Virus record (IMG/VR): IMGVR_UViG_3300009184_000149
Span: 1 to 29,297 of that record
Strand: one strand, 5' to 3'
Length of the DNA: 29,297 nt
Source: a virus
The notes below the pieces were generated by a model that worked only from the letters and a program-made list of their open reading frames with translations, had not been told where the DNA came from and did no database searches. A program made the position numbers and the translations under genes. Below are positions 3,454 through 22,626 of the stretch, one piece after another (within the stretch, counting starts at the first letter, position 1; each line of letters begins with the position of its first letter).

Positions 3454-3454
3454 C

Positions 3455-4465: not shown

Positions 4466-6128
4466 CCTAGCTAACGTAGCAATCGGCTTTGACGCCTCGA
4501 AGATAACGAGAGGCGTCGATTTGTCGGCTGGTGAGATGCGCAGGTTGAACGGAATCATCAAAGAGTCCATTTCGCCAATGGATCGCTACAACGCTGATTT
4601 GACAGTTTTAGAGAAGGCACACAAGGCAGGTGCCGTTAGTGCTGACAGGATGAAGCAGGCTGTCGCAAGCTTGCAAGAGAAGTACAAGCAGGACGTAAGT
4701 TCGTCTAGCACCAACTCAATGGCCACTGATTTGAAATCGACGCTGGCACAATACGCTGGAATGGCGGCAGCGTTCCAGGGGATTAAGAAAAGCCTTTCTT
4801 TGGCAGCAACAGCGGAATCGAACAAGATTTCTTTGGAAGTGCTTACTGGTTCTGCACAAAAGGCACAGATGCTGTTTGATGGCTTCATTGAACTAGATCG
4901 CAGCTCACCGCTATCACGTTCAGACTTTGCACGCGCATCCCAGACTTTACTTGGCTACGGGTACGCGGCAGAATCAACACTACCAACCTTGAAAGCACTT
5001 TCGGAAGTTTCCGTTGGCAACGCAGATCGCTTTCAATCGCTCTCGCTGGCGTTTGGACAGGTAACGGCCAACGGTCGCTTGATGGGTCAAGAAGTCTTGC
5101 AGATGGTCAATGCGGGCTTCAACCCGTTGCAGGAGATAAGCCGCACCACTGGGCGAAGCATGATCGAACTGAAGAAGGCTATGGAAGATGGTGCTATTTC
5201 GTCAAGCATGGTCGAGGATGCTTTCAAGTCGGCTACTAGTGAAGGCGGTCGATTCTTCGAGATGAATGAACGCCTTAAGAATTCTGCGGCTGGTCAGTTT
5301 GCAAAGATGCAGTCTGACGTTGAGATGTTGGCGACTGAGATTGGCACCAATTTGCTTCCAGCTGCTAAAGCATTTATGGATTTGCTTACGTCTGGATCTA
5401 ACGCATCTGGAGAAAAAGGAATGGCAGCGAGATTTGCGGAGACATTTAGCATCGGTGCAGAGGGCTTGTTGTATGCAGTCACGCTTCAGCAAGACAAGTT
5501 TGACGCGATGATGGAACGGCTGATTGATCAAAATACGAAAGCCGAAATGGAAGCGGGACTGCTTCACAAACAAACTCCAGAGGAAAGAGAAAGAGTCGCT
5601 GCAAATATAGCCAAGCGTGCAGCGGATGAAAGAAAGGAACTTGAAGCGATTGCACAAAGAGAAAAACAAGCGGCAGATTTAAAGGCTACGCAAGAAAAGG
5701 AATCGATAGCACGGGCAAAACAGGAAGAAAACGAACGCAAAAAACGTGTTCAAGACATGATTCGAGACGCTGAAAAACTTAAAGAAGCAACTGCAACACC
5801 TTTAGAAAAATACAAAGCCGAAATCGACAAGTTGCAAAACATGATCGACAGCGGAGCAATCGACCAGCAGACATTTGATCGCGGCGAAAAGCAAATGCGA
5901 GAAAAGTTTCAAAAAGACACTGCACCAGACAAAAACGGCATTGAACTAGCAATCGCTCCAACTCTTCGGGCTGGCAGTGTGGAAGCGTACAGAATGATGA
6001 ACGACCAGAAAAGCCAAGACATGGAAATTGCGCTACGACAAGAGGAATTGCAGATACAGCAAATTGACATCAACAAACAGCAACTCGAAGCAATCAAAGA
6101 GATTCAGCCAATCGGGAGGGCACGTTAA
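4449..6128 (+). CDS. Tail tape measure protein
   Basis: 559 residues, largest gene of the tail module. Residues ~100-310 carry the TP901-type tape measure domain ('TLAQYAGMAAAFQGIKKSLSLAATAESNKISLEVLTGSAQKA', 'SRSDFARASQTLLGYG', 'QVLQMVNAGFNPLQEISRTTGRSMIELKKAMEDGAIS'). Residues ~360-500 are a long Lys/Glu-rich coiled coil. Rare Trp and few hydrophobic membrane-like segments are seen. Using the rule of about 0.15 nm per residue, the tail would be near 80 nm, a short siphovirus tail. Start overlaps the T frame by 17 bases. Confidence 0.9.
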   Translation: MAGSINLANVAIGFDASKITRGVDLSAGEMRRLNGIIKESISPMDRYNADLTVLEKAHKAGAVSADRMKQAVASLQEKYKQDVSSSSTNSMATDLKSTLAQYAGMAAAFQGIKKSLSLAATAESNKISLEVLTGSAQKAQMLFDGFIELDRSSPLSRSDFARASQTLLGYGYAAESTLPTLKALSEVSVGNADRFQSLSLAFGQVTANGRLMGQEVLQMVNAGFNPLQEISRTTGRSMIELKKAMEDGAISSSMVEDAFKSATSEGGRFFEMNERLKNSAAGQFAKMQSDVEMLATEIGTNLLPAAKAFMDLLTSGSNASGEKGMAARFAETFSIGAEGLLYAVTLQQDKFDAMMERLIDQNTKAEMEAGLLHKQTPEERERVAANIAKRAADERKELEAIAQREKQAADLKATQEKESIARAKQEENERKKRVQDMIRDAEKLKEATATPLEKYKAEIDKLQNMIDSGAIDQQTFDRGEKQMREKFQKDTAPDKNGIELAIAPTLRAGSVEAYRMMNDQKSQDMEIALRQEELQIQQIDINKQQLEAIKEIQPIGRAR

Positions 6129-7010
6129 ATGGCAAGTCAGATCATTGAATCAAGCGAACTTCGAGACGGAAGCGGTAACGTCAAGGCTGGAAAGCTTCAA
6201 ACGCTTATCTTCACCAGCAAGTACAAGTACATCGTACTTGCCGACAGCAAAGACGTTACCCGCGAAGAGATCCTATTGCTGACTCCTGGCTTGCCGATCA
6301 TTAACTTGGTTTACGGACCAACCAACCAAAAGTGCATGAGCAAGTCTGCACAACGCATGGCAGGTCACGCCCTACACTGGGAAGTTATTGCCGAGTTTGA
6401 ATCAGGCCAAGAAGATCAGAAGCAATCACCAGACAATCCAGACTCGCCAGACCCAGTAACATGGATTCCGCTTTTCAAGATCGACTCGTTTGAAACGAAA
6501 CAACGAGTGCTGTACGAAGACTTCGACGATCCACCAAAGAAGATTATCAACTACGCAGGCCAGCCTTTTGCGGAACCACTAACGCGAACGGTCACGATCT
6601 GTTCTTTCTCGCTTGTGCAGTTCGAAGATGCTTCGCAAGACATCAATTCGATTATGGATCGAAACGACACTGTAAACGAAGACACGTTCCGAGGCCGTGA
6701 ACCTAAAACATGCAAGTTAAACGTGACTGGTGCCGAACTTGGCTACTTCGGATTCTTTCCCGCTTGGCGAATCAGCTACAAAGTGACCTATGACCCAGAC
6801 ACCTGGGAGACTGAATTGTTGCAAGTAGGCAGCGTATTCAAAGACGTTGCAGACGGTAACAAGATCAAGCCATACTTGGACCAGACAAACTCGCATCGCA
6901 TTAACGGCAAGCTAAAGGCGGATGGTGACAAACTTGGATACTTGGCAGACCCGCTTACAACCAAGTTCCTAACTTACAAACAAATCAGCTTCGATTTCAT
7001 CAGGTCGTAA
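6129..7010 (+). CDS. Phage tail-associated structural protein, unknown family
   Basis: 293 residues, ATG immediately after the tape measure stop and behind GGGAGGGC. Mostly beta with aromatic-rich strands; a central proline/aspartate linker (DNPDSPDPVTW near 100-112) separates an N-terminal domain from a domain with 'RTVTICSFSLVQFEDASQDINSIMDRND', and a C-terminal 'FFPAWRISYKVTYDPDTWE' stretch. Located where distal tail or baseplate hub proteins usually lie. No enzyme motif seen; assigned as tail tip component by position only. Confidence 0.6.
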   Translation: MASQIIESSELRDGSGNVKAGKLQTLIFTSKYKYIVLADSKDVTREEILLLTPGLPIINLVYGPTNQKCMSKSAQRMAGHALHWEVIAEFESGQEDQKQSPDNPDSPDPVTWIPLFKIDSFETKQRVLYEDFDDPPKKIINYAGQPFAEPLTRTVTICSFSLVQFEDASQDINSIMDRNDTVNEDTFRGREPKTCKLNVTGAELGYFGFFPAWRISYKVTYDPDTWETELLQVGSVFKDVADGNKIKPYLDQTNSHRINGKLKADGDKLGYLADPLTTKFLTYKQISFDFIRS

Positions 7011-10127: not shown

Positions 10128-10156
10128 TGTAGCACCTTGGAATTTTTCGTGGTTCA

Positions 10157-10185
10157 AAAATAACGCCGTGCGCCGCGCAGTACAA
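10157..10185 (-). promoter_or_regulatory. Candidate sigma70-like promoter for the two small membrane genes
   Basis: Read on the minus strand: TTGTAC (-35 like), 17 bases, TATTTT (-10 like), about 30 bases before the ATG at 10127. Each hexamer matches the consensus at four of six positions, so this is a plausible but weak call. Confidence 0.3.
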
Positions 10186-10370
10186 CCACCAAAAAAACCT
10201 GCACTTTTGCGGGAATACAACACCCCTTGCGGGGGCATTTTCAACATCGGTATTCGCTTGGTTTCCAGCGTTTCTTTACCGGAAGCAGGATTTGAAACCC
10301 TGCACAACCCTGGTTGAACGCCCTCGGCGCAGTGCGCATCGCAGTACAAAAGGCGGCGCGCAGTGCGCAG
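10163..10370. repeat. GC-rich repeat zone at the left edge of the cassette array
   Basis: Two copies of GCGCAGTGCGCA (10327-10338 and 10358-10369), each able to fold as GCGC-AGT-GCGC, and two copies of CGCAGTACAA (10176-10185 and 10340-10349). A GTTGAAC box at 10313-10319 duplicates the box at 11364. The stretch 10128-10404 contains no gene that I can support. Confidence 0.5.
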
Positions 10371-10404
10371 TTTGTTTTAATCAGAGGGGTCGGAGAATAA
10401 TTGT

Positions 10405-11397
10405 TCAACGAATCGAATCCATTACCGCTGCGATGAACTCCGCAGCGACTTGCGGGACGATCGCGTTTCCCAATCCACGTATCTGAGCCACTCGCCCGGA
10501 TACCCCATGAGCCAACACACAAACACCGGGTTTAGTTGGCCTGGCTTTTCCGTCGCTGCATGGCAACCATTCAACGCCGTCCCAATGGCTTGATCCCGCA
10601 GGCAGGCTGCTCCGGTCCCTTTGCGGTTGACTCGGTTCGCATCGAACCCGCCCGCCGCTTCTGACGCTTTGGGCGTTGCCCAACCAGCTGCCATGTTTAT
10701 CGTTGATGCTCGGTTCGCTCCGCTCTCTCGCTGCCAACCTTCCCCGTGGTCGATGCCCCTTGTCGCTGCGTTCGCGTCCGGCGTTGGCCATCCGGCCAAC
10801 ATCGCCACTTCGTTCAACGGTCGCGAGTTCTTGCAGTGTTGGTTGCTCTTGCCGTTCTTCCAATCGCGAGCCGCTGCGGTGGGCCACCCAGAACAGTCTT
10901 TGGCGGATGTGCGGCGCACCGACGCCCGCAGCGCACAAATCGGCAGCCCCGACCGCATAGCCCAATGCTTCCAGGTCAGTGCGTACATCGGACAACCAAT
11001 TCCTTCCATCCTCTGACGCAACTTGCTCTCCAAAGATTGTTGCAGGGCGGCACTCGTGAATGAGACGCCGGAACTCCGGCCAAAGGTGTCGGTCGTCTTT
11101 GACTCCCTTTCGCTTGCCTGCGGCGCTGAATGGTTGGCAGGGGCAACTTCCGGTCCAAACGGTAGCATCATCTGGCCAACCGGCCATTTCGAGTGCGAGA
11201 GGCCATCCGCCGATACCGGCGAAGAAATGGCATTGGGTGAATCTGCTAACGTCATTGCCTGTTACGTCCTTGATTGAACGGTCATCTATGAAATCTATCT
11301 GCAACGGCAGGCACGATAACCAATGTGCTGCGTGCGGGTCGAACTCGTTCGCGTACACCGATCGTTGAACAATGTGTTGTTGCGGATTTGCCGGCAT
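10405..11397 (-). CDS. C5-cytosine DNA methyltransferase
   Basis: 330 residues with the full motif series: HFFAGIGG (58-64, motif I, AdoMet), WTGSCPCQPFS (81-91, catalytic C87), FGEQVAS (122-128; GEQ in place of ENV, usual for this phage subfamily), HIRQRLFWVA (163-172, motif VIII), and GLGNAIVPQVAAEF near the end (motif X). Between VIII and X is a variable recognition region with repeated 'MANAGRERSD'/'LGNAQS' units. It probably methylates phage DNA against host restriction; the target is unknown. Cassette logic suggests the native start may be the GTG giving VYANEFD at residue 14, inside the ORF. A second ORF overprints this gene. The gene fills one unit bracketed by GTTCAAC (10403) and GTTGAAC (11364). 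Confidence 0.92.
   Translation of the reverse strand: MPANPQQHIVQRSVYANEFDPHAAHWLSCLPLQIDFIDDRSIKDVTGNDVSRFTQCHFFAGIGGWPLALEMAGWPDDATVWTGSCPCQPFSAAGKRKGVKDDRHLWPEFRRLIHECRPATIFGEQVASEDGRNWLSDVRTDLEALGYAVGAADLCAAGVGAPHIRQRLFWVAHRSGSRLEERQEQPTLQELATVERSGDVGRMANAGRERSDKGHRPRGRLAARERSEPSINDKHGSWLGNAQSVRSGGRVRCEPSQPQRDRSSLPAGSSHWDGVEWLPCSDGKARPTKPGVCVLAHGVSGRVAQIRGLGNAIVPQVAAEFIAAVMDSIR
10422..11255 (-). CDS. ORF overprinted on the C5 methyltransferase (WPTP-repeat family)
   Basis: 277 codons in the +1 frame relative to the methyltransferase. It is not a random shadow: 'QQSLESKLRQRMEGIGCPMY', 'LTWKHWAMRSG', 'LRASVRRTS', several GWPT(P/A) units (e.g. AGWPTPDA, GWATPKAS) and 'GQLNPVFVCWLMGYPGEW' followed by 'SSRKS' are features of a phage protein family I recall as annotated in its own right. 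The WPTP units arise from the same bases that encode the 'ADA'/'ANA' repeats of the methyltransferase variable region. Start uncertain, no strong Shine-Dalgarno. Whether it is translated cannot be told from one sequence. Confidence 0.4.
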   Translation of the reverse strand: MTLADSPNAISSPVSADGLSHSKWPVGQMMLPFGPEVAPANHSAPQASERESKTTDTFGRSSGVSFTSAALQQSLESKLRQRMEGIGCPMYALTWKHWAMRSGLPICALRASVRRTSAKDCSGWPTAAARDWKNGKSNQHCKNSRPLNEVAMLAGWPTPDANAATRGIDHGEGWQRESGANRASTINMAAGWATPKASEAAGGFDANRVNRKGTGAACLRDQAIGTALNGCHAATEKPGQLNPVFVCWLMGYPGEWLRYVDWETRSSRKSLRSSSQR

Positions 11398-11454
11398 AGT
11401 CTTTTCTGATGGTTAAATCACTCGCGGCAAAACCGCAAAACACAAGCGTTACCA
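11364..11454. repeat. attC-like site E (cassette recombination site)
   Basis: Outer boxes GTTGAAC (11364-11370) and GTTACCA (11448-11454). Inner arms 11373-11393 and 11425-11444 pair over about 19 positions; the left arm has an unpaired G and, six pairs on, an A that is mismatched. The loop lies over the start of the C5 methyltransferase. The left box is the complement of the box at 10403, on the far side of that gene. Confidence 0.65.
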
Positions 11455-11458
11455 TGAC

Positions 11459-12310
11459 CTAGAACAACACGCCCTGGGTCAATCTCTCTTTGCTGATCTC
11501 GACATACTCCGGGTTCAACTCGATCCCGATGAATCGCCGTCCATTGTGCTTCGCCATCTTCGCGGTCGTTCCGCTCCCGCTAAACGGGTCTAGCACAATT
11601 TCACCTTCGTTTGACCAACTCTGTATGTGATCCCTTGCTAACGCTTCGGGAAAAATCGCTGGATGCTCAAACGCTATTTTGTCTTTGCTGCTGTGGTTGA
11701 ATCCGTTGGCAAATTCCCACACGTTCCCGCGCACGCCGTATTCTTTGACCTTTGCACCCGTTCGCATCGCCCATGATTCTTCAAGCGTTCCATCTGCTTT
11801 CCGCTGTGTCGATGCTCCGAGGCTTTGGCCTCCGTAATTGTTCTTTTTGTCCGCGATGAGGTTGACCGTTTTCGGTGCGCCTTTGGCGAAAACGTACATG
11901 TACTCAAACGTCGGATAGTATCGCGTCGTCTCTGGGAACTTCGCGACACGCTGATAAATCATCGTGTCATGCTGCTTCAATCCAATGCGGCGAAAAAACG
12001 CTGCTTGTTCTGCCGATGTTCCGGTTTCGCTGCCGTCTATCGTGGCATCGTTGACCACCCAAACAATCACGCCTCCAGGCTTGAGGATTCGTTTCAACTG
12101 CCACGCAACGCCGTAGAAATCCCACGAATGCCCACCATACGTTCGCAAATCGTCGTATGGTGGCGATGTGACAACTAGGTCGATGCAATCTCTTGGAAAC
12201 GATCCCATCACGTCGCAATTGTCGCCGCATATAATCTGGTCCAATGGCAACGCAGGCATGGTAACAATGTCATGCATCGGAGCACTCGATAACGTCGTTT
12301 GGTTTTGCAA
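11459..12310 (-). CDS. N4-cytosine / N6-adenine DNA methyltransferase
   Basis: 283 residues from a TTG seven bases after GAGGAG. TSPPY (48-52) is the catalytic motif IV and DPFSGSGT (from ~241) the AdoMet motif I, followed by 'GRRFIGIELNPEYVEISKERL'. Motif IV before motif I marks the beta class (PF01555 family). SPPY favours N4-cytosine but does not exclude N6-adenine. The frame is open back to 12340, and an ATG at 12259 sits right inside the cassette boundary box and may be the native start (MPALPLDQIICGDN). The product likely protects phage DNA. Boxes GTTACCA (11448) and TGGTAAC (12259) bracket the unit. Confidence 0.88.
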   Translation of the reverse strand: MQNQTTLSSAPMHDIVTMPALPLDQIICGDNCDVMGSFPRDCIDLVVTSPPYDDLRTYGGHSWDFYGVAWQLKRILKPGGVIVWVVNDATIDGSETGTSAEQAAFFRRIGLKQHDTMIYQRVAKFPETTRYYPTFEYMYVFAKGAPKTVNLIADKKNNYGGQSLGASTQRKADGTLEESWAMRTGAKVKEYGVRGNVWEFANGFNHSSKDKIAFEHPAIFPEALARDHIQSWSNEGEIVLDPFSGSGTTAKMAKHNGRRFIGIELNPEYVEISKERLTQGVLF

Positions 12311-12349
12311 TGTTTTTCTCCTCGTGCCCGATGATGACAAGCGTTATGC
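12259..12349. repeat. attC-like site D
   Basis: Boxes TGGTAAC (12259-12265) and GTTATGC (12343-12349). Arms 12269-12285 (17 nt) and 12324-12338 (15 nt) pair perfectly except for two extra bases in the left arm, a G and, six pairs later, an A. The loop (12286-12323) holds the GAGGAG and TTG start used by the downstream methyltransferase. Confidence 0.75.
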
Positions 12350-12763
12350 GGATGGTTTGCGTGCGTTGATTCGACGAAAAAACGCTTCATCCTTCCGACC
12401 AAAATTCCGCCCTGGCCTACACAGCCAAATGTAATAACACTCCACAAACTCCAAAACTTCCTCGTCTTCAAATTGAATCCAGCTTATTTCATCCCCGTCT
12501 TCAATTGCGTGATGGTGTATCCACTTTGTTCCGCCTAATCGATGTGCTAAATCATTTGATTTTCCCACATACTCAATTCTTCCCTCGTTGTGCAGGAAAT
12601 AGATGGCTGCAATACCCGGGATGTATATATCAAAAACGCTTCCGAACGGTGCAGGCGGATCTGGATACCGGGCTAACTCTGCGAACAATTCATGCTTTTG
12701 TAGTGGCCGCGAATCCACATAACAACGCGATGGACCCAAGCCCTCATTACTGTCTGTACTCAT
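12344..12763 (-). CDS. GIY-YIG nuclease-domain protein
   Basis: 139 residues, ATG at 12763 behind AAAGGAG. Residues ~50-125 form a GIY-YIG domain: 'GIAAIYFL' (first Tyr), 'RIEYVGKSNDLAHRL' (second Tyr and the Arg), 'VLEFVECYYI' (Glu) and 'RPGRNFG' (Asn). All usual catalytic positions appear filled, so nuclease activity is plausible. GIY-YIG proteins include homing and restriction endonucleases; beside two methyltransferases it might be part of a modification/exclusion set. The ATG lies in the loop of the neighbouring attC-like site; a GTG at 12718 just inside the cassette edge is an alternative start (124 residues). Stop TAA lies in the GTTATGC box of site D. Confidence 0.75.
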   Translation of the reverse strand: MSTDSNEGLGPSRCYVDSRPLQKHELFAELARYPDPPAPFGSVFDIYIPGIAAIYFLHNEGRIEYVGKSNDLAHRLGGTKWIHHHAIEDGDEISWIQFEDEEVLEFVECYYIWLCRPGRNFGRKDEAFFRRINARKPSA

Positions 12764-12805
12764 CTTCGAATCTCCTTTCGGGCTGGGTCATCGCCAGCGT
12801 TATGC
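12717..12805. repeat. attC-like site C
   Basis: Boxes ACATAAC (12717-12723) and GTTATGC (12799-12805). Arms 12727-12743 (17 nt) and 12780-12794 (15 nt) pair fully except for an extra G and an extra A in the left arm, about six pairs apart. The loop carries AAAGGAG and the ATG of the GIY-YIG gene. Confidence 0.75.
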
Positions 12806-12808
12806 CGA

Positions 12809-13180
12809 TCAAGCGGTCAGCATGTAAATGACTCGTCTGTCCAATACTGGTGGCATCAGGTTGTAGCTCATTCGAAACATCGCGTCGTCGATCACGTAGA
12901 AAACCATCTCGCGTTCTTCGGTGATGATGCCAGCGTAAACCAACCACTCAAAATCCTCTGGACCGTACTCAACGAACCGTTCTTTGACGATGATTTCCTC
13001 TTTTGCAACCGCCTTGCCGTTGGGGAGCTTATACCGGCCAGATGGCTTGTCGCGTTCCATATGCGGGTTGGTTCGAACTCGAAATTCTGCAAACATCGAT
13101 CCTGGTTTGTCGAACTGCCCACGGTCGAGCTTGGCTTTCACTGCTTCCCAATTTGCGGGATGACAAACTATTAACGGCAT
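12809..13180 (-). CDS. Hypothetical cassette protein (123 residues)
   Basis: ATG at 13178-13180 lies in the boundary box of site B (GTTATGC read on the minus strand), as expected for the first codon of a gene cassette. The frame is open from a TTG at 13195. Not recognised. Sequence is mixed alpha/beta ('MPLIVCHPANWEAVKAKLDRGQFDK', 'EEIIVKERFVEYGPEDFEWLVYAGIITEEREMVFYVIDD') with no metal or nucleotide motif and no membrane span. Ends four bases before the next boundary box. Confidence 0.6.
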   Translation of the reverse strand: MPLIVCHPANWEAVKAKLDRGQFDKPGSMFAEFRVRTNPHMERDKPSGRYKLPNGKAVAKEEIIVKERFVEYGPEDFEWLVYAGIITEEREMVFYVIDDAMFRMSYNLMPPVLDRRVIYMLTA

Positions 13181-13267
13181 AACAATCCAATGCAACGAAG
13201 TTGCGGTTAAGGTTTACTCTCAATGGTGAATCAACGGGCCGCAACTCGTTGATTGGAAACGTTAGGT
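13177..13267. repeat. attC-like site B
   Basis: Boxes GCATAAC (13177-13183) and GTTAGGT (13261-13267). The left arm CCAATGCAACGAAGTTGCGG (13187-13206) pairs with the right arm 13239-13256 over 18 base pairs, leaving one G and, six pairs later, one A unpaired in the left arm. Confidence 0.8.
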
Positions 13268-13597
13268 GGATTTCCAAAGATCATCGATAGACTTTTCGTC
13301 TTGGTCTATGTATCCATCGTACATGTATGACTGGTGTTCCTCTTTCGGCAATCCGTCTTCAAGAACTTCTCCAGCGGTCCAGCAATCCAAAGCAGCGTAC
13401 TTGTGCATTCTCACTTTCCTTGGCGTTCTAATCAATTCTTCGGCTGTCTCGCAATCAACCGCGTTGTAGACACCGAAAACCAAGTATCCAGGGAAATCTA
13501 TACCATGCTTCGGCCATCGAATTTCCAAACCGTCGCACGGACCTCCTTCAAGATACACGATGGCCACAGGCTCCAAATTCTTATCGTCTTCACTCAT
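13262..13597 (-). CDS. Hypothetical cassette protein (111 residues)
   Basis: ATG at 13597 after AGGTGG, which lies in the boundary box of site A. Residues 10-30 'EPVAIVYLEGGPCDGLEIRWPK' resemble the 'GGP.DG' start of small planctomycete and actinobacterial hypothetical proteins; then 'GYLVFGVYNAVDCETAEELIRTP' and an acidic end. No enzymatic motif. The TAA stop (13264-13262) is formed by the GTTAGGT box of site B, a common arrangement for cassette genes. Confidence 0.6.
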   Translation of the reverse strand: MSEDDKNLEPVAIVYLEGGPCDGLEIRWPKHGIDFPGYLVFGVYNAVDCETAEELIRTPRKVRMHKYAALDCWTAGEVLEDGLPKEEHQSYMYDGYIDQDEKSIDDLWKST

Positions 13598-13603
13598 AAG
13601 ACC

Positions 13604-13692
13604 ACCTAACAAAAAAATGCACCGGAGTTGCCGTCCGGCTGTTTCCTCATTGACACTCACCGGCGGCAACCCGGTGATTTTGTCCGTTAAAG
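13604..13692. repeat. attC-like site A
   Basis: Boxes ACCTAAC (13604-13610) and GTTAAAG (13686-13692). The left arm AAAATGCACCGGAGTTGCCG (13614-13633) pairs with the right arm CGGCAACCCGGTGATTTT (13664-13681), leaving G and A unpaired with six pairs between. The integrase stop codon lies in the right box. This is the right end of the array. Confidence 0.8.
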
Positions 13693-14787
13693 TTTTTGAT
13701 CCGACAACTCAAAAGCCGTCGCCCAATCCGAAGCGGTCAACATTAAATAATGTTCCTCCGCAACACGATCACTGTGCCCGAACCACTCGCGGCAAGCATG
13801 GGACGCAAATTTATTGCCTGCATCGGTACGGGCTGAAGCTCGCAGATTGATCCAAAGCTTTTCCCAACCGTGAAGGTTCGCGTTCTTGATCGCGTCCAGC
13901 AACCAGCCGCGCCACGTTGTAGCCGCCGACGCCCGAGCTCTCACAAACACATAGCCAGTTTTGGTCGATAGGTTGTATTGGGTTTGCAGTTCATGGACCG
14001 CCCCGAGCATTGGGACAACGCGAGAACCTGTTTTGGTTGCTTTGGCGATCCGTAGCCGCCGGTTTTCGAAATCAATATCTTCCCAAGTCAACGCTAAGGC
14101 TTCATGCGGTATTCGAAGGCCGCAAAAACGAGCGAGGACGAAGATAGTTCTTATGTCTTGATGATCGCAACCCGCTAGAACATGCTGAGTAGTTTGGGGC
14201 GTTAGATAGAATTGTCGCTCCTTGTTCGTTGTCGCCTGGACGTTTACGCCTGCAAACGGATTCGACGTTAATAGCTTCGAGTCAACCGCCCAACCAAAGA
14301 CCTGCCAAGTTCGTTCAATGACCTTCTTCGCGTGTGAGGAAGCATGGACAGCGGCGAAATCTCGTGCGAATTGTTTCGCATCTGCAACAGTTACCGTAGC
14401 CAGATCGATGTCACCGAGTTGGCTTATCGCATGTTTGCGAGCTGTTCCAAATCCCTTCAAGGTAGATTGCGAAAAGTCTGTACGGCTCGCAACGTAAGAA
14501 TCCCAAGCCTTGCCGAGAGTCATTGCGACGGGTTTCGACCAATGGCAAAGCAACCCGAATTCCGAAAGCTTATCGAGTAGTTTTTGCTCGCATCGCATGA
14601 GCCAAGCAGAACTTCTCTCGTCGGGCTCCAGTCCGTTGCGGTTGCCGATCCGGATAGCTTCGATGCGGTCGCGAATAAACTCCGCTTGCGACTTCGTTAC
14701 CCGCCCGAGATAGATCGACTGGCGATTTCCAGCCGTCGAAATGTAGCAGTACCAGCCGCCCCGCTTGTGCTTCGAAATGGTAGTCAC
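13687..14787 (-). CDS. int: Tyrosine recombinase, phage integrase
   Basis: 366 residues. An N-terminal arm-binding-like region (GGWYCYISTAGNRQSIYLGRV), a SAM-like core-binding domain (~90-185) and a catalytic domain: R225 in ARFCGLRIPHEALALTW, R316 in LWINLRASARTD, H338 in REWFGHSD, nucleophile Y347 in AEEHYLMLT. The His of the usual HxLR is Ile-Asn-Leu-Arg here, a variant I associate with planctomycete phage and island integrases. It lacks the extra helix of integron IntI. Start overlaps the excisionase stop (ATGA at 14784-14787). It would catalyse phage integration and excision; the att site is not identified. Confidence 0.9.
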   Translation of the reverse strand: MTTISKHKRGGWYCYISTAGNRQSIYLGRVTKSQAEFIRDRIEAIRIGNRNGLEPDERSSAWLMRCEQKLLDKLSEFGLLCHWSKPVAMTLGKAWDSYVASRTDFSQSTLKGFGTARKHAISQLGDIDLATVTVADAKQFARDFAAVHASSHAKKVIERTWQVFGWAVDSKLLTSNPFAGVNVQATTNKERQFYLTPQTTQHVLAGCDHQDIRTIFVLARFCGLRIPHEALALTWEDIDFENRRLRIAKATKTGSRVVPMLGAVHELQTQYNLSTKTGYVFVRARASAATTWRGWLLDAIKNANLHGWEKLWINLRASARTDAGNKFASHACREWFGHSDRVAEEHYLMLTASDWATAFELSDQKL

Positions 14788-15017
14788 GACAGCACCCCGA
14801 AAAACTTATCCACTTCGGCGCGGTGGAAAAGAATCTGCTTACCTACCAATTTTCCGCGAAGCTCGCCGCGTTCGCGCAGCCCGACAATCGTTCCCTCGCC
14901 AACGCCCATCGCATCGGCTAGTTCTTTGATTGTGTAAGCGATCTTGGAAGTGAATTTTACTTCGCTTAGCTTGTCGATGAGAACCGAAGCTAGTTCGTCA
15001 ACTGGTGTTGTAACCAT
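14784..15017 (-). CDS. xis: Excisionase-like HTH protein
   Basis: 77 residues from the ATG at 15017, six bases after AGGTGG; the longer frame to 15131 lacks a start signal. Residues 27-72 are a winged helix-turn-helix of the MerR/HTH_17 excisionase type ('AYTIKELADAMGVGEGTIVGLRERGELRGKLVGKQILFHRAEVDKFF'). It is directly upstream of and overlaps the integrase, so recombination directionality factor is the natural role. Confidence 0.8.
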   Translation of the reverse strand: MVTTPVDELASVLIDKLSEVKFTSKIAYTIKELADAMGVGEGTIVGLRERGELRGKLVGKQILFHRAEVDKFFGVLS

Positions 15018-15050
15018 GTTTTGCCACCTGAGAAACGTTGAACTGGAATC

Positions 15051-15115
15051 GGGGTGGATACGTTCAGAACATTGACGGCTGTGGGGAAGTGTACTCGGCT
15101 GGCGAACGGAAGGCA
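15051..15115 (+). repeat. Leader-like repeat, copy 1
   Basis: GGGGTGGATACGTT followed by ACATTGACGGC and later CTGGCGAACGGAAG. The first 29 bases match 22 of 29 bases at 16356. Lies in the 265-base gap between xis and the first early gene, where no supported gene is seen. A GTG at 15054 opens a peptide starting MDTFRTL. Confidence 0.4.
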
Positions 15116-15282
15116 AGCGGCAAATAATCAAACGATGTTTGTACTTTTTTCAAAGCGACAGCCCGCGACTTTTCTGGAGAATTCCTCACCTTTCAGTTTG
15201 GAACAGCAAGTGCAAGGACCAAAGGTGTCGAGCGATGCTTCAAATTGCGTAAAAGGAAAAGACTGGCCTGGAGGCTAACTAG

Positions 15283-15471
15283 ATGGGAAACTTTGTGGAG
15301 GGTTTGGGAATGCTTTGGGATGTTTATGTGGTTGACTTTATTGAGGAGACTTGCGAGATGGTTCTAGAGTCTGTTTCGCTGGAAGAGGCGAAGGATTTTG
15401 AGTCTGTTTGGAAGGACCAGGATTCGCTAGTTGCTATTCTTCCTGGCAGCTTTTGCGTTCGTACTGTCTGA
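15283..15471 (+). CDS. Small acidic protein, first gene of the early region
   Basis: 62 residues, ATG eight bases after GGAGG. Acidic, with aromatic start (MGNFVEGLGMLWDVYVVDFIEE) and 'SVSLEEAKDFESVWKDQDSL'. No recognised family. Its last 45 bases overlap, antisense, the end of the Cys/His gene at 15427. Likely a phage accessory protein. Confidence 0.5.
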   Translation: MGNFVEGLGMLWDVYVVDFIEETCEMVLESVSLEEAKDFESVWKDQDSLVAILPGSFCVRTV

Positions 15472-15801
15472 CTTTGCAACTTCTTTCTGCTTTGCAAGTC
15501 GCGCTGATGGTCTGCCACCTTTAGAGGCTGGCAGCAGTCGGTTAAGTTTTATAAGCACATCTTCGCTTGTTTGCGAGATTGCTTTTGTAACGCAGTATTC
15601 ATGGCATCCACGCACATTTTTGCGTTTACCAATCTCGGTAAAGCACCAAAGGCAAACGCCATCTGCAACCTTTTGGTCCCTGTCGGCAGTGCTGATCGGC
15701 TCGACCTTTGACGGGTAGAGGTTGAGCACATCGGAAACAGATGTGATTGCAAGCCGAATTCTTTCCAAGTCTGCCGTTTTGATTTGCGTGTATTCGCTCA
15801 T
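15427..15801 (-). CDS. Small Cys/His (zinc-knuckle-like) protein, paralogue of 16008-16292
   Basis: 124 residues, ATG five bases after AGGAGGG. The core 'VCLWCFTEIGKRKNVRGCHEYC' gives C-x2-C-x12-C-H-x2-C, likely a small zinc site, followed by a helix and a 'KGGRPSARLAKQ' basic segment. The same order (CxxC, RGCHxxC, then GGRP) occurs in the divergent gene at 16008, so the two are paralogues. The family is known to me only as hypothetical phage/planctomycete proteins; nucleic-acid binding is a guess. Confidence 0.65.
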   Translation of the reverse strand: MSEYTQIKTADLERIRLAITSVSDVLNLYPSKVEPISTADRDQKVADGVCLWCFTEIGKRKNVRGCHEYCVTKAISQTSEDVLIKLNRLLPASKGGRPSARLAKQKEVAKSDSTNAKAARKNSN

Positions 15802-15820
15802 TTTGCCCTCCTAAGAATAG

Positions 15821-15955
15821 TCGTCAAGAAAGTTTCTAGGAATTTTTTGAGTTCCGCAAGTCCTTACAGTCAAAAACTTTACGTTTGTTTCGAGGTGGCT
15901 TGTCGTCAATACTGTCTTGAATACTCTCTTGACGATAGTTTTGCCTGCCGATAAT
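15821..15955 (+). promoter_or_regulatory. Divergent control region with TCGTCAA boxes and a + strand promoter
   Basis: TCGTCAA occurs at 15821-15827 and 15903-15909, and its complement TTGACGA at 15929-15935. The latter doubles as a -35 (TTGACG), followed by 15 bases and GATAAT (15950-15955), upstream of the gene at 16008. The layout suggests a repressor operator pair between two divergent paralogous genes. Confidence 0.4.
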
Positions 15956-16007
15956 CTTTGGCGTATCAATCCGCATGGATGCTGTTTCATCACAAGAGGG
16001 GCGCATC

Positions 16008-16292
16008 ATGCAAGTTGTTATCTACGTTCAGGAATTTGTCGAAATGCGCAAGGCTGCCTTAGATCGAATCACGAAATGCAAAAACGAAAACCTGTGCGTT
16101 GCTTGCATGGGTTCGTTGGAAGGTGAGAAGCGAGTCATTCGCGGCTGTCATTACCGATGCCAGCAAGCGACCTTGAAGGCAATCAAGGAAGGAAAGTTTA
16201 CAGAAAAGGGACGAGTTCAGGCTGGCAAGTTTTTGCCTAAAAGCGGTGGACGACCTGTATCGAATCCAGTGTCGATGGAGGCCGCAAGCTAG
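16008..16292 (+). CDS. Small Cys/His (zinc-knuckle-like) protein
   Basis: 94 residues, ATG seven bases after AGAGGGG; the longer frame from 15975 has no good start signal. 'LCVACMGSLEGEKRVIRGCHYRC' (C-x2-C-x12-C-H-x2-C) is followed by a helix 'QQATLKAIKEGKFTEKGRVQAGKF' and 'SGGRPVSNPVS'. It is divergent from its paralogue at 15427. Possibly one regulates the other through the shared upstream region; no direct evidence. Confidence 0.7.
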   Translation: MQVVIYVQEFVEMRKAALDRITKCKNENLCVACMGSLEGEKRVIRGCHYRCQQATLKAIKEGKFTEKGRVQAGKFLPKSGGRPVSNPVSMEAAS

Positions 16293-16298
16293 TAGTTC

Positions 16299-16346
16299 TG
16301 CCTTCGGGATGGTTCCCCTCGTTCAAGTTCGATTCTTGAGACGGCA
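16299..16346 (+). other. Truncated tRNA-like structure 1
   Basis: TGCCTTC (16299-16305) pairs with GACGGCA (16340-16346) at six of seven positions, like an acceptor stem. Inside are a GGGA-TGGT-TCCC hairpin and a canonical T-arm (TCAAG, loop TTCGATT, CTTGA, 16323-16339). There is no D-arm/anticodon pair, so it is not a tRNA. It follows the stop of the previous gene by seven bases. Confidence 0.45.
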
Positions 16347-16355
16347 TTGTATTCA

Positions 16356-16415
16356 GGGGTGGGTACGTTTTGGACGTTGGCAGCGTTGCTAGCGAATTGG
16401 AAGTCTAACAATTAA
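16356..16415 (+). repeat. Leader-like repeat, copy 2
   Basis: GGGGTGGGTACGTT, then GACGTTGGCAGC and CTAGCGAATTGGAAG, similar to 15051-15115. A GTG at 16359 opens an 18-residue peptide (MGTFWTLAALLANWKSNN) ending TAA at 16413-16415, comparable with the start of the peptide in copy 1. It may be a leader peptide or a control element. Confidence 0.35.
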
Positions 16416-16465
16416 AGGTGCTGACCAAGAATTGGTCACGGAGGCACCGAGAAGGATTGATCTTT

Positions 16466-16768
16466 ATGAAAACGATTATTGTCGATGGAGTTGAGTTTGT
16501 AGAGAAAGCAACTTATCCGAAGTGTGAGAGAGCCATTGTGTATGTTGATCGCGGTTGGATCTTTGCTGGTGATATTCGACGTGAGAATGGTCGAATCTAC
16601 TTGACCCGCGCGGTTCATGTTTTTCGTTGGGAGTGCATTGGGTTCGATGGGATGGTTGCTGATCCCAAGTCGAGCAAGGTCACGTTAAAGGCTATGGATC
16701 GACCAGTTGAGATACCACAGTCGGCAGAAGTTTTTTGCATCCCCGTTGATTTAGACTGGGGCATCTAA
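16466..16768 (+). CDS. DUF6948-like small protein
   Basis: 100 residues, ATG preceded by AAGGA. 'MKTIIVDGVEFVEKA', 'IVYVDRGWIFAGDI', 'LTRAVHVFRWECIGFDGMV' follow the order of a small beta-rich phage family (MKT.TVDGVEYV ... VV..RGWVFVG ... L..A.VVR.WGT). Function is unknown; in phages it occurs in early gene runs. Its TAA overlaps the next ATG (TAATG). Confidence 0.6.
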   Translation: MKTIIVDGVEFVEKATYPKCERAIVYVDRGWIFAGDIRRENGRIYLTRAVHVFRWECIGFDGMVADPKSSKVTLKAMDRPVEIPQSAEVFCIPVDLDWGI

Positions 16769-16866
16769 TGGAAACGACCATTAAGCCAATCTGCTACGGC
16801 TACGGCTACGGCAACGGCTACGGCACTGTTAGTAGTCTCGGATTAACAGGAGTGACAAACATATGA
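16768..16866 (+). CDS. 32-residue Tyr-Gly repeat peptide
   Basis: ATG at 16768 overlaps the preceding TAA, and the TGA at 16864-16866 overlaps the next ATG (ATGA), so the peptide is tied to both neighbours. The sequence contains CYGYGYGNGYG (residues 9-19) encoded by tandem TACGGC units, then a Ser/Gly/Thr tail. I recall longer Tyr-Gly/Asp-Gly/Ser-Gly repeat peptides from planctomycete phages and genomes. Function is unknown; repeat length is likely to vary between relatives. Confidence 0.55.
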   Translation: METTIKPICYGYGYGNGYGTVSSLGLTGVTNI

Positions 16867-17120
16867 ACACGATTGTTTCTTTGTCGCTCACCGAGGTAGC
16901 CAAAGACGACCTGCGACACGGTCAGCGGTATCTGTTAGTCGATGATTCGCATGCTCTTGTTGTGTGCGTTCGTAGCGTGGACGGTCGCAAGTTCGCAAAA
17001 GTCGAGATGTCGTACTTGGCAGCACGGGTGCAGATGAGTTTGGATATTATGCTGGATCACTTTACGACTGACTTGGCGAAGTTCTTTGAACTGCCTTCTG
17101 ACAAGGAAGGTGCAGTATGA
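16863..17120 (+). CDS. Hypothetical early protein (85 residues)
   Basis: ATG overlaps the previous stop and its own stop overlaps the next start (ATGA at 17117-17120). Pattern: 'MNTIVSLSLTEVAKDDLRHGQRYLLVDD' with a beta core 'HALVVCVRSVDGRKFAKVEMSYL' and a C-terminal amphipathic helix. Not recognised; no cysteine motif or membrane span. The tight overlaps place it in the 16466-17556 operon. Confidence 0.6.
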   Translation: MNTIVSLSLTEVAKDDLRHGQRYLLVDDSHALVVCVRSVDGRKFAKVEMSYLAARVQMSLDIMLDHFTTDLAKFFELPSDKEGAV

Positions 17121-17344
17121 GAACTTGGAAAGTGACTGCATACACTGGCAAGAATCGTGACAAGCATCTTGGCCGCAGTTGGGTTAAGGCTGATACCGAG
17201 TCGCAAGCTGTTGAGCTTGGCAGACGGGCACTTCGAATGATTGGCGTACGAGGTAAGTTTCAGGTGTCTGCCTCTGAGTATTCGCCACTGAGGGATATGG
17301 ATTTTCTGGGATACGTCCAGAAAGTTGCTGAGGTGGCACGATGA
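17117..17344 (+). CDS. Hypothetical early protein (75 residues)
   Basis: Basic protein with 'RTWKVTAYTGKNRDKHLGRSWVKADTESQAVELGRRALRMIG', a small alpha/beta unit in which 'V.A.TE.QA.ELGR.AL' is typical of phage proteins of unknown role. Translationally coupled on both sides (ATGA overlaps). Confidence 0.6.
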   Translation: MRTWKVTAYTGKNRDKHLGRSWVKADTESQAVELGRRALRMIGVRGKFQVSASEYSPLRDMDFLGYVQKVAEVAR

Positions 17345-17556
17345 AAAACAATGACGACGAAACAGCGTTCCCTGTCGCTATCGGACAGACAGCGGCAGAC
17401 ATGAAAGGGCTAAGCATTCGAGATTACTTTGCTGGTCAAGTGCTAGTCGGACTCTATGCGACTGGGCACTTCAAAGCAATCGATGACACAAAACTTGCAA
17501 GGGTCGCTTACAAGCAAGCAAACGAAATGATGGAAGCCCGCAAGACACTGGGCTAA
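17341..17556 (+). CDS. Conserved phage protein of the 'SIRDYFAGQ' family
   Basis: 71 residues. 'GLSIRDYFAGQVLVGLYATG' and the closing 'ARVAYKQANEMMEARKTLG' match a small helical protein present in early operons of many phages ('G(I/L)S.RDYFA..A....... A..AY..AD.ML.AR'). Role unknown. Last gene of the coupled run that starts at 16466. Confidence 0.65.
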   Translation: MKNNDDETAFPVAIGQTAADMKGLSIRDYFAGQVLVGLYATGHFKAIDDTKLARVAYKQANEMMEARKTLG

Positions 17557-17590
17557 ACAACACACGGACGCAACCAGCGGACGGAATCGA

Positions 17591-17666
17591 CTAGACGATG
17601 GAGCGTCTAGGGCTGGCTTCATGGATGGGATTATTACAACGGATGGATTTTCTAAAAAGGATTTTT
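17591..17666 (+). promoter_or_regulatory. Putative CsrA-binding leader of the phage csrA gene
   Basis: Two hairpins present GGA in the loop. CTAGACG-ATGGAG-CGTCTAG is at 17591-17610. AAAAA-GGA-TTTTT is at 17654-17666, where the GGA is the Shine-Dalgarno of csrA. Further GGA motifs lie between them (ATGGATGGGAT, ACGGATGGATTTT). GGA in a hairpin loop over the ribosome binding site is the known CsrA target form, so autoregulation is suggested. Confidence 0.55.
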
Positions 17667-17668
17667 AT

Positions 17669-17848
17669 ATGGCGCTCGTACTTAGTCGCAAACCATTGGA
17701 ACGTGTCTGGGTTGGAAACGATGTGTGCGTTGAAGTCGTTTCGATCAAAGGGAACAAAGTGAGACTGGCTTTTCACGTGCATCCATCGGTGCCGATCTTG
17801 AGAAGCGAAGTTAAGGAAGCTGACGAGAGAAAGGAACAGGGGAAGTGA
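17669..17848 (+). CDS. csrA: CsrA-family RNA-binding regulator
   Basis: 59 residues from the ATG at 17669 (an upstream ATG at 17621 lies in the leader). 'MALVLSRKPLERVWVGNDVC' corresponds to the MLILTRRxGExIxIGdxI start, 'VEVVSIKGNKVRLAFHVHPSV' to the VxVLgVkGnqVRiGixAPxxv core, and 'PILRSEV' carries the RNA-contact Arg (R45, equivalent to R44 of E. coli CsrA). Length is normal. CsrA dimers bind GGA loops in mRNA leaders to block or alter translation and stability. A phage copy could retune host or phage gene expression. GTGA overlap couples it to the next gene. Confidence 0.85.
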   Translation: MALVLSRKPLERVWVGNDVCVEVVSIKGNKVRLAFHVHPSVPILRSEVKEADERKEQGK

Positions 17849-18138
17849 GATATTACAAGATCGTCTACCGTCGCAAGATTTATAAAGGCAACGGAAGATT
17901 TATTCATAGCATGGTGACATCGTTCCAAACAAGTCGTGCGATTACATCGACCGAAGCAATGAACGACGCCTACACGAAAGCAGCTCGGCAAGTGTCGGAC
18001 GATTGGAGCGTTGAGATACGCGAAGTGTGCAAGGCTGAGTTCCTGCAAATTATCCGCGACCATGACAACTTTGGTATTTGGATGTTGTCCACTGACGCTT
18101 ACCAGGAAGAAAGGGACGACGCAAATGCCGACAGCTAA
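17845..18138 (+). CDS. Hypothetical early protein (97 residues)
   Basis: GTG start overlapping the csrA stop (GTGA). 'MRYYKIVYRRKIYKGNGRFIHSMVTSFQTSRAITSTEAMNDAYTKAA' suggests a beta hairpin followed by helices; the end is acidic (YQEERDDANADS). Not recognised. Co-translated with csrA and overlaps the next gene by 14 bases. Confidence 0.6.
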   Translation: MRYYKIVYRRKIYKGNGRFIHSMVTSFQTSRAITSTEAMNDAYTKAARQVSDDWSVEIREVCKAEFLQIIRDHDNFGIWMLSTDAYQEERDDANADS

Positions 18139-18508
18139 ACATCCGAAATTGAAGGTCAAGCATTGCAAATTTATAAAACGCGATCAAGCGAAGATGATTT
18201 ACGCAGCGGGTGCAAAGATCGACGACGACAGTTCCTTTGGATGCATATTGTCCAAAGGCAACGACAGTGACTTTGCCCCATCTCGCATGCCTCTACCTAC
18301 AGGTGCCAGACCTGGCTCAATCGAGAAGATCGAATTGTACGCGGCTAGATTGTTACGTGGTGAAGAGTTGAATCACCCATGTGACGAACGGACTTCCGGA
18401 ACCATCGACATGCACAACGCGATGATCGAGTTTGCGATGGCGGGACGCAAGGAACGAAAGGCAGAAAGCATTAAGGCGAAGAAGAAACGCAAAAAGCTAT
18501 CTGCTTAA
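18125..18508 (+). CDS. Hypothetical basic protein (127 residues)
   Basis: ATG at 18125 after AAGGGACG; the frame upstream to 18011 is shadow. Basic N-terminus (KHPKLKVKHCKFIKRDQAKM), a middle with 'PLPTGARPGSIEKIELYAARLLRGEELNHPCDE' that is strikingly like a conserved linker found in phage and plasmid hypotheticals (PG..EKI..la.R...Ge.L.hp.D), and a Lys-rich end (KAESIKAKKKRKKLSA). Nucleic-acid binding is possible. Confidence 0.6.
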   Translation: MPTAKHPKLKVKHCKFIKRDQAKMIYAAGAKIDDDSSFGCILSKGNDSDFAPSRMPLPTGARPGSIEKIELYAARLLRGEELNHPCDERTSGTIDMHNAMIEFAMAGRKERKAESIKAKKKRKKLSA

Positions 18509-18509
18509 C

Positions 18510-18552
18510 AGGCAAAACGGTTTTCGAGCGAGTTCGATTCTCGCTCTTGCCT
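18510..18552 (+). other. Truncated tRNA-like structure 2
   Basis: AGGCAA (18510-18515) pairs with TTGCCT (18547-18552). Inside is a T-arm with seven base pairs, GAGCGAG-TTCGATT-CTCGCTC (18526-18546), with the same loop as the element at 16323. It starts just after the stop of the preceding gene and is followed by T-rich sequence, so a terminator role is also possible. Confidence 0.45.
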
Positions 18553-18592
18553 TTGGGGTTTGTTTGTAGGTTTTGTTTTTAGGGGTTTGATT

Positions 18593-19450
18593 GTGTTGCA
18601 TATCAACAAGGGAAAAAGGAATCGCGCGCGTCGCATTCTAATCTATGGCGAAAACGGAGTTGGAAAGTCCTCGCTTGCAGCGAAGTTTCCAAATCCTCTG
18701 TTTCTCAACATCGAAGATGGTATTGGCGATCTTGACGTTGACTCTACCGAAGTGATTCGGTCGATCACGGACTTTATGGGTTGCATGATTGGTGCCAGCG
18801 AAACGGATTACGAGACAATCGTTATCGATACGGTTGACTGGTTGGAGAAACTGATTTTTGCTGACGTAGCCCAAAAGGCAGGCAAGAAAACGATTGACGA
18901 CATCGGGTTTGGCAAAGGCTACCAAGCAGTCGAACAGCAATGGAAGTCTTTGTTCGACGGTTTGTCCTATCTTTGGCAACAAGGAAGGCACATTGTCTTT
19001 ACATGCCACGAGCAGATCGAGAAGTTTACGAATCCTGATGGCGACTCGTACAACTACTGGAAGCCTGCCCTCCATATCAAAGGCAGTGGTTGCGTTACCG
19101 AATGGTGCGATGAGGTGCTGTTCGTTCGGTATCGCACGCTGACGCGACAGATGGATGAGGGATTTGGCAACAAGCGATCCATTGCCATCGGTGGCAAAGA
19201 GCGAGTCATCGTCTGCAATAAGTCGGCAACCGTTGAAGCGAAGAACCGTCTTGGGATGGTGGATGAGATTTCCAGCTTCGCAGACTTGCAAAAGTATTTG
19301 CCAATCGTTTCGAAGCAAGCGGTTGCAGTTCCTGCACCAACGCAAGAAAAGCCAACTGGCAACATTGCAGGCGTCGTCAAGAACGGAACAAGTAAAGGCG
19401 AAGCCTTCGCGGTTGCTGAGCCTGTCGATTTGAGTGATTCCCCCTTTTAG
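18593..19450 (+). CDS. Sak4-like phage ATPase (AAA_24, single-strand annealing/recombination)
   Basis: 285 residues from a GTG seven bases after AGGGG. Walker A GENGVGKS (19-26), Walker B IVIDT (76-80), and 'HIVFTCHEQIEKFTNPDGDSYNYWKPALHIKGSG' as the sensor region. This is the RecA-like core of Sak4/gp1.1-type proteins, which act with a phage single-strand binding protein in recombination-dependent replication. The C-terminal ~70 residues are a flexible, Pro/Ala-rich tail ending DLSDSPF, which may contact the partner. The next gene is exactly that partner (DUF669). Confidence 0.8.
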   Translation: MLHINKGKRNRARRILIYGENGVGKSSLAAKFPNPLFLNIEDGIGDLDVDSTEVIRSITDFMGCMIGASETDYETIVIDTVDWLEKLIFADVAQKAGKKTIDDIGFGKGYQAVEQQWKSLFDGLSYLWQQGRHIVFTCHEQIEKFTNPDGDSYNYWKPALHIKGSGCVTEWCDEVLFVRYRTLTRQMDEGFGNKRSIAIGGKERVIVCNKSATVEAKNRLGMVDEISSFADLQKYLPIVSKQAVAVPAPTQEKPTGNIAGVVKNGTSKGEAFAVAEPVDLSDSPF

Positions 19451-19465
19451 TTTTGGAGTTTAGAG

Positions 19466-19921
19466 ATGGCAAATTTATCTGGATTTGATGCAAGCAAAGT
19501 GGAGCCGAACGATTACGGAGTTATTCCTCCTGGTGATTACGAGGCTTGCATTGTCAACAGCGAAATGAAAGCGACGAAGGACGGAACCGGCCAATATTTG
19601 AATCTGGAGATTCAGATTGTCGGTGGGCAGTACCAGAATCGGAAGTTGTTCGAGAAGTTGAACCTTGTCAACAAGAACGACCAAGCGGTGACTATCGCCA
19701 AAGGAACCTTGTCGGCAATCTGTCGGGCGGTGAACGTCTTGACTCCGAACGATTCGAGTGAACTGCACAACAAGACTTTCCGCGTTGCTGTTGGCGTTCG
19801 AAAGAACGACTACAAGGGCGACATGGAAAACCATGTGAAGTCGTTCAAGCCTCGCTCGGCTGGTCCGGTTGTGGCGGCGGGCGTTTCTGTTCCTGAAACT
19901 ACTAGCAAGGTACCTTGGTGA
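19466..19921 (+). CDS. DUF669 single-stranded DNA-binding protein
   Basis: 151 residues, ATG behind TTTGGAG. 'YGVIPPGDYEACIVNSEMKATKDGTGQYLNLEIQIVGGQYQNRKLFEKLNLVNKN' is the DUF669 signature (PF05037), an OB-like fold that serves as a phage ssDNA-binding protein. The conserved 'A...G.L.AI..AVNV' segment follows. The C-terminus ends in a short PW, not the acidic tail of bacterial SSB. Pairing with the Sak4-like ATPase upstream supports the role. Confidence 0.85.
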   Translation: MANLSGFDASKVEPNDYGVIPPGDYEACIVNSEMKATKDGTGQYLNLEIQIVGGQYQNRKLFEKLNLVNKNDQAVTIAKGTLSAICRAVNVLTPNDSSELHNKTFRVAVGVRKNDYKGDMENHVKSFKPRSAGPVVAAGVSVPETTSKVPW

Positions 19922-19925
19922 TTTT

Positions 19926-20315
19926 ATGGGATGGGAAGTATTTGTAGAACCGCAACATCGTGGAAGTGCCACAAAGTACGCGTCTGATACGGTGGTTATC
20001 AAGCATGAAAAATCTAGTGGTGGTTCAACTACATTGAGCGTTGCGTTTCGGATTGGAAGCGATGTAGTTTCTGCCATGCGATGGCAGGCGGGAGACAAAG
20101 TGACAACAGTTCGAAATGGTGACATCGTTGGAATAAAACGAGTGTCTACGAAAACTGCGATTGGCTGGACATTAACAAAGGCATCATCTGGAAAGAACCT
20201 GCGATTTAAGTGTTGCAGCAAAGAACTTTTGGAGTCGCTTCCTGTTGGTGTGATTACCAATCTTATTGTTGACGGTGACGTTCTCGTTCTTGGTGAAGTC
20301 AAGAAGGCTAAGTAA
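19926..20315 (+). CDS. Hypothetical protein in the replication operon (129 residues)
   Basis: ATG at 19926, four bases after the previous stop; the longer frame from 19869 is overlap shadow. Mostly beta: 'GWEVFVEPQHRGSATKYASDTVVIKHEKS', 'LSVAFRIGSDVVSAMRWQAGDKVTTVRNGDIVGIKRVS', 'VITNLIVDGDVLVLGEVKK'. Layout resembles small OB/SH3-like barrels with an 'AGDKV' strand. Not recognised; replication or recombination accessory by location. The next gene starts at the base after its stop. Confidence 0.55.
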   Translation: MGWEVFVEPQHRGSATKYASDTVVIKHEKSSGGSTTLSVAFRIGSDVVSAMRWQAGDKVTTVRNGDIVGIKRVSTKTAIGWTLTKASSGKNLRFKCCSKELLESLPVGVITNLIVDGDVLVLGEVKKAK

Positions 20316-22598: not shown

Positions 22599-22626
22599 AA
22601 TCAAATAAAAAATCACGGAAGTTCAA

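Follow-up and report, generated by a model that had tools for sequence, protein, structure and literature searches.

A gene-cassette array with inverted genes, integron attC sites and no identified IntI gene in a phage genome fragment

Integrons have been described in phages both as complete systems and as clusters of attC sites lacking integron-integrases (CALINs), with methyltransferase genes among their cargo, and several phage attC sites recombine with attI1 through the integrase IntI1 (Qi et al., 2023, PMC9892861). Here we analyze a stretch of 29,297 nt from virus record IMGVR_UViG_3300009184_000149 (the window), taken as a partial genome without an identified terminase, portal or capsid gene; the virus records used in this study are metagenome contigs. 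Between positions 10403 and 13692 the window holds an array of five single-gene cassettes and five attC sites (Table 1), which an earlier reading of the DNA alone (the original prediction) had described as an integron-like array of cassettes in a phage that lacks an integron integrase (IntI). This description is borne out by the profile of the attC sites, the signature at the cassette boundaries, an attI-like element that recurs in an IntI-bearing phage, and whole-cassette differences among related arrays. With five attC sites and no IntI in the 29 kb of this fragment, the array falls within the definition of a CALIN, which asks for at least two attC sites with intI missing from the vicinity. 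On sequence evidence, it is very probable that the locus is a phage-borne integron without an integrase gene, comprising an attI at 10374-10406 and five cassettes, each made of a single gene and one attC.

The window array is a member of the published kind of phage integron or CALIN (PMC9892861), with which it has in common attC-bounded cassettes, DNA methyltransferase cargo, and the occurrence of arrays both with and without IntI. Genes in the main-text examples of that study run mostly in the usual direction (divergent attC being noted for P12002L), whereas those of the window are inverted. Also not reported there are an attI common to IntI-bearing and IntI-less phages, systematic inversion, and whole-cassette differences between near-identical contigs; a literature search, made largely without subscription papers and preprints, found no description of inverted polarity, of such a common attI or of such differences. 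Sedentary chromosomal integrons of the Vibrio type, for example that of Vibrio phage Va_90-11-286_p16, have the same attC geometry, complementary boundary boxes (14/14) and attC directed away from intI, but their genes mostly run with the attC, which stands at the gene 3' end, and their arrays are long and include intI. Class 1 integrons, as found on the E. coli phage P1 isolate L-II, have the same extrahelical C/G and A six pairs apart and the same G|TT boxes, and differ in their resistance cargo, their sense polarity (5/5) and the presence of intI1 and attI1.

In integrons a cassette circle is inserted at G|TT, so that the right half of the cassette's core site comes to form the left border of the following cassette. 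Boxes that are complementary across genes, and not within sites, are a signature of integron cassettes. From 10403 the + strand of the window reads G|TTCAAC, gene 1, GTTGAAC, site 1, G|TTACCA, gene 2, TGGTAAC, site 2, and continues in this way through site 5. Every pair of complementary 7-mers that had been proposed to bracket five one-gene units is present and, with GTT/AAC held fixed, complementarity across the genes extends to 19 of the 20 free positions (P ~6e-11 under base composition), whereas the two boxes within one site are not complementary (0-3 of 4). The boundary signature was also found in 50 of 64 cassettes at viral IntI loci, against 4.1 with boxes re-paired, in 47 of 62 cassettes at bacterial IntI loci, and in 14 of 14 cassettes of the Vibrio phage integron. 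The possibility that the hairpins bear no relation to gene boundaries, raised along with the original prediction, was examined and is contradicted by this layout. The statement that gene stops and starts fall in the boxes holds in part: some do, and certain start codons lie inside the sites instead.

The five sites are 89-91 nt long and, as proposed, fold alike into long imperfect hairpins whose left arm, on the + strand, has an extra G and, six pairs further on, an extra A; their minus strands fold at z -2.3 to -5.0 relative to shuffles. A geometry finder, designed after the sites had been seen, returned the five sites on the + strand and nothing on the - strand or in shuffles; since this strict two-bulge finder overlooks most bacterial attC, it serves for description only. 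An independent profile of positions and base pairs, with the loop ignored, was built from 26 training attC, no window site among them, taken from bacterial IntI loci, one Vibrio phage integron, class 1 integrons on P1, and phage TJE1, and thus almost wholly from bacterial integrons. Applied to all AAC...GTT pairs on both strands of the window (n=2,634), this profile ranked the five sites 1 to 5, all on the + strand, with 43.9, 40.7, 39.1, 35.2, and 26.5 bits. These scores are within the training range, left-out training sites reaching mostly 27-54 bits, apart from five that trail below; the highest value reached by any of 30 dinucleotide shuffles was 24.2 bits, and the - strand reading of the five places gave at most 11.6 bits. 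The window sites have in common with attC an AA after AAC, a T three bases ahead of an A (the A being absent in site 1 only), an extrahelical base followed after six pairs by an extrahelical A, and a right arm with mostly AGC before GTT. The first extrahelical base is G in the window sites, and either C or G in the bacterial examples shown. A scan of the window with Rfam left the attC family unmatched.

Just outside the first box lies a 33-bp element whose counterpart in an IntI-bearing phage (G009; contig L161, ~5121-5154) stands between intI and the first cassette, and by position 10374-10406 appears to be an attI. As this element is common to the window and an IntI-bearing phage, the locus would be an integron without intI and not a loose attC cluster. 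G009 and the window phage are distant relatives, 72% identical in nucleotides at window 27790-28091, and cassette 2 together with its attC is 77-78% identical in the two at the nucleotide level. Both G009 and a further phage (G018; contig L183) carry arrays of the same kind with an IntI (TIGR02249 344 bits, cut-off 265) just past the methyltransferase end, and both contigs have terminase, portal, and head-protease genes.

Outside the attI end, the window has direct repeats at 10164-10185 and 10328-10349 (22 nt at 86%), and GCGCAGTGCGCA occurs twice, at 10327-10338 and 10358-10369. A second contig of the same phage, L002 (IMGVR_UViG_3300027973_000209), is near-identical to the window from 10340 to 22787, with one difference. 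Left of 10340, window ~10153-10340 and L002 12449-12635 are ~83-85% identical, after which the two are unrelated, which puts a mosaic break near the edge of the array.

Gain and loss of single units among relatives, a further expectation of the original prediction, was found in two settings. A related phage (L031), 84-93% identical to the window phage over several segments, has a lone copy of cassette 4 (82%) that comes with an attC of its own and sits at the equivalent of window 25265; the sequence next to this lone cassette may be another attI. Moreover, two IntI-bearing viral contigs (L216 and L217) have flanks that are 99.2-99.9% identical and arrays that differ by whole cassettes, with the alignment breaking at the boxes: L217 has extra cassettes at ~3241-3786 and 5617-6306, and L216 has one at ~3296-3739. 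L216 encodes IntI, a spanin, a ParB-like protein, and SSB, and no capsid gene was seen among its open reading frames (ORFs) scanned. These differences suggest recent activity, which makes cassette shuffling in phages directly testable. In addition, 11 viral relatives of the N4/N6 methyltransferase have, just past the gene, a box identical to the R'' box of its attC. Among 80 viral contigs with IntI relatives (L204-L283), 42 have attC arrays, and their cassette ORFs match C5-cytosine DNA methyltransferase (C5-MTase), Dam, Mom, and DpdA. In a tree of viral and bacterial IntI, the separation of the two was left uninterpreted because the bacterial sample is almost only of beta/gamma type.

The genes of the array run against its attC sites, a feature which, like the attI, the original prediction had overlooked. 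All five genes lie on the - strand and all five attC on the +, with an attC at every gene's 5' end, directed away from the gene, unlike the usual integron form in which genes are co-oriented with an attC located 3' of the gene. Because the genes face attI and run counter to attC, each attC would stand ahead of its gene in the transcript. Read in the gene sense, the attC3 loop contains a ribosome-binding site, AAAGGAG, and then the ATG of gene 3; gene 1 has its own ATG inside attC1, and attC2 has GAGGAG ahead of a TTG of gene 2. Polarity was compared by longest ORF, a noisy measure, among 80 bacterial IntI loci (nearly all from beta- and gammaproteobacteria), viral loci retrieved with the two methyltransferases, and 80 viral loci retrieved with IntI. 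The bacterial loci gave 46 sense, 4 antisense, and 11 ambiguous cassettes, and the loci fetched by methyltransferase gave 11 antisense and 1 sense, four of these cassettes being from the window's own phage (via L189). Viral loci fetched by IntI yielded 24 antisense, 18 sense, and 22 ambiguous cassettes; there, Pfam matches fell on 8 antisense ORFs (DHH, with three members, C5-MTase, HNH, RNA ligase, Dam, and Mom) vs 2 sense ORFs (thiouracil desulfurase and DpdA). Inversion predominates in the viral arrays sampled, without being universal, and is rare in the bacterial IntI loci sampled. A strong ribosome-binding site and ATG within the site, opening a long frame on the strand opposite attC, occurs in 16 of 131 viral and 2 of 111 bacterial sites, and on the attC strand in none of either set; attC as start region is a minority pattern.

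A similar short peptide is encoded in attC loops of G009 (L161 2994-3085, MNKPNDVTGCFDA) and of the window (12259-12349, IAKPNDVIECSDA, then a stop), which suggests a coding constraint inside attC.

The presence of DNA methyltransferases in the cargo, as had been claimed, is supported for two genes by PF00145 and PF01555 matches. For cassettes 3-5, PHROG and Pfam searches gave nothing firm; the GIY-YIG identity assigned to 12344-12763 has no Pfam support and is no more than hinted at in PHROGs (E 0.03). The cargo of the window and the matches in other viral arrays given above are consistent with the proposed swappable anti-restriction locus, a function that we infer from them. The likely benefit lies in swapping DNA-modification genes by which the phage protects its DNA against host restriction.

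We propose that the integrase gene was probably lost from the window integron, and that an IntI supplied by the host or by a co-infecting IntI-bearing phage would bind the folded single strand of attC and join it at G|TT to attI or to another attC, as in bacterial integrons. The cassette genes are on the same strand as the upstream phage integrase gene and are presumably transcribed through from it, and in some cassettes the attC loop may provide both the ribosome-binding site and the start codon. More broadly, and more tentatively, it is conceivable, though we would put it somewhat short of probable, that phages keep an integron lineage of their own, with a phage IntI and attI, in which cassettes are systematically inverted and attC forms the 5' leader and in some cases also the start of translation; members without IntI would be mobilized by the IntI of a co-resident phage or host, and all would draw on a shared, reshuffled anti-restriction pool.

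Several results weigh against an integron that lacks its integrase gene. IntI is absent from the window (TIGR02249 at most 19.8 bits, cut-off 265) and from the second contig of the phage, so that activity would need an unseen enzyme; as the window is a genome fragment, an intI could yet lie in the missing part. The R boxes of most sites deviate from strict RYYYAAC/GTTRRRY, and a base-perfect empty site for the lone L031 cassette was not found in the window, ~40 extra nt resembling attI remaining. Polarity is mixed in viral IntI loci, and by longest ORF is ambiguous for 22 of 64 cassettes. Furthermore, two covariance models (R1 and R2, Infernal), both built from loop-trimmed bacterial attC, give the window sites no score. 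R1 is also weak on known attC (in the searches made, one Vibrio site reached 14.7 bits and a TJE1 match 12.3), so this failure is counted as a fault of the models; as their loop had been trimmed, both were treated as insensitive and replaced by the position and pair profile scored without the loop.

Other explanations of the locus account for parts of these data. The array could be an inert relic, its cassettes acquired earlier and since fixed as a phage operon like any other, as the contig without IntI and the identical array in the second contig of the phage might suggest; we consider this unlikely, given that hairpins and G|TT boxes are intact, with scores in the range of sites from IntI-bearing arrays, that cassette 4 occurs elsewhere in a related phage, and that near-identical IntI-bearing contigs differ by whole cassettes. 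The phage-type tyrosine recombinase encoded at 13687-14787 abuts attC5, with its stop codon in the R' box, and lies on the cassette-gene strand, so that it might move the cassettes itself as an independent, non-IntI integron-like system. However, it matches the phage integrase family phrog_1, reaches 19 bits against the TIGR02249 cut-off of 265, and is without the IntI patch motif, consistent with a probable lysogeny integrase. In G009 the IntI is located at the attI end, a phrog_1 integrase being encoded separately elsewhere, and 9 of 16 related contigs searched, all partial, are without any tyrosine recombinase, making this a very improbable source of cassette movement.

Secondary insertion of the G|TT type by host integrons is known, and canonical bacterial cassettes may have been dropped singly into phage DNA at secondary (attG-like) sites by a host integron, with no phage integron involved. 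The lone cassette of L031 at another locus fits such an origin, but the attI element at the array edge is common with G009, related phages encode IntI beside the array, and inverted polarity, found in the viral sets, is rare in the bacterial loci sampled, which leaves host insertion distinctly unlikely. Finally, intergenic hairpins are common in phages, and the sites could in principle be ordinary dispersed repeats or terminators unrelated to recombination; with the boundary complementarity, the attC sequence profile, the extrahelical bases, and gain and loss that break at the boxes, this is scarcely credible.

An integron without intI in this phage supports the view of integrons as a phage gene-exchange system and indicates DNA-modification genes as cargo. 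Inverted polarity would alter the understanding of how cassettes are expressed, and cassette finders that assume sense polarity may misread inverted arrays.

Table 1. Features of the cassette array and its borders in the window.
Feature	Position	Strand	Evidence
attI-like element, proximal array edge	10374..10406	-	AACAATTATTCTCCGACCCCTCTGATTAAAAC (gene sense), 33 bp; 90.9% identical to G009 intI-first cassette interval
First cassette boundary box G|TTCAAC	10403..10409	+	complementary to GTTGAAC at 11364
Cassette 1 box pair	10403 GTTCAAC / 11364 GTTGAAC		4/4 free bases complementary
Cassette 2 box pair	11448 GTTACCA / 12259 TGGTAAC		4/4 free bases complementary
Cassette 3 box pair	12343 GTTATGC / 12717 ACATAAC		6/7; 3/4 free bases complementary
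Cassette 4 box pair	12799 GTTATGC / 13177 GCATAAC		4/4 free bases complementary
Cassette 5 box pair	13261 GTTAGGT / 13604 ACCTAAC		4/4 free bases complementary
attC1	11364..11454	+	profile 26.5 bits; fold z -3.9
attC2	12259..12349	+	profile 39.1 bits; fold z -2.3
attC3	12717..12805	+	profile 43.9 bits; fold z -3.1
attC4	13177..13267	+	profile 40.7 bits; fold z -4.5
attC5, last site	13604..13692	+	profile 35.2 bits; fold z -5.0; R' box GTTAAAG overlaps phage integrase stop codon
Cassette 1: C5-cytosine DNA methyltransferase	10405..11397	-	PF00145 8.6e-21, phrog_363 1.1e-75; stop in 10403 box, ATG inside attC1
Cassette 2: N4/N6 DNA methyltransferase	11459..12340	-	PF01555 3.2e-41; start ATG near 12259 or inside attC2
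Cassette 3: possible GIY-YIG protein (weak)	12344..12763	-	ORF, Shine-Dalgarno plus ATG test; PHROG endonuclease E 0.03 only
Cassette 4: unknown protein	12809..13180	-	ATG in 13177 box; homologue 82% identical in phage L031
Cassette 5: unknown protein	13262..13597	-	ORF, stop in 13261 box; no family match
Phage-type tyrosine recombinase, probable lysogeny integrase, not IntI	13687..14787	-	phrog_1 2e-33

Away from the array, window 2666-2682 (GTCTAAC-NNN-GTTGGAC) is a short palindrome-like sequence with two inverted GTTRRRY boxes that resembles the array-edge terminator of TJE1 (PMC9892861).

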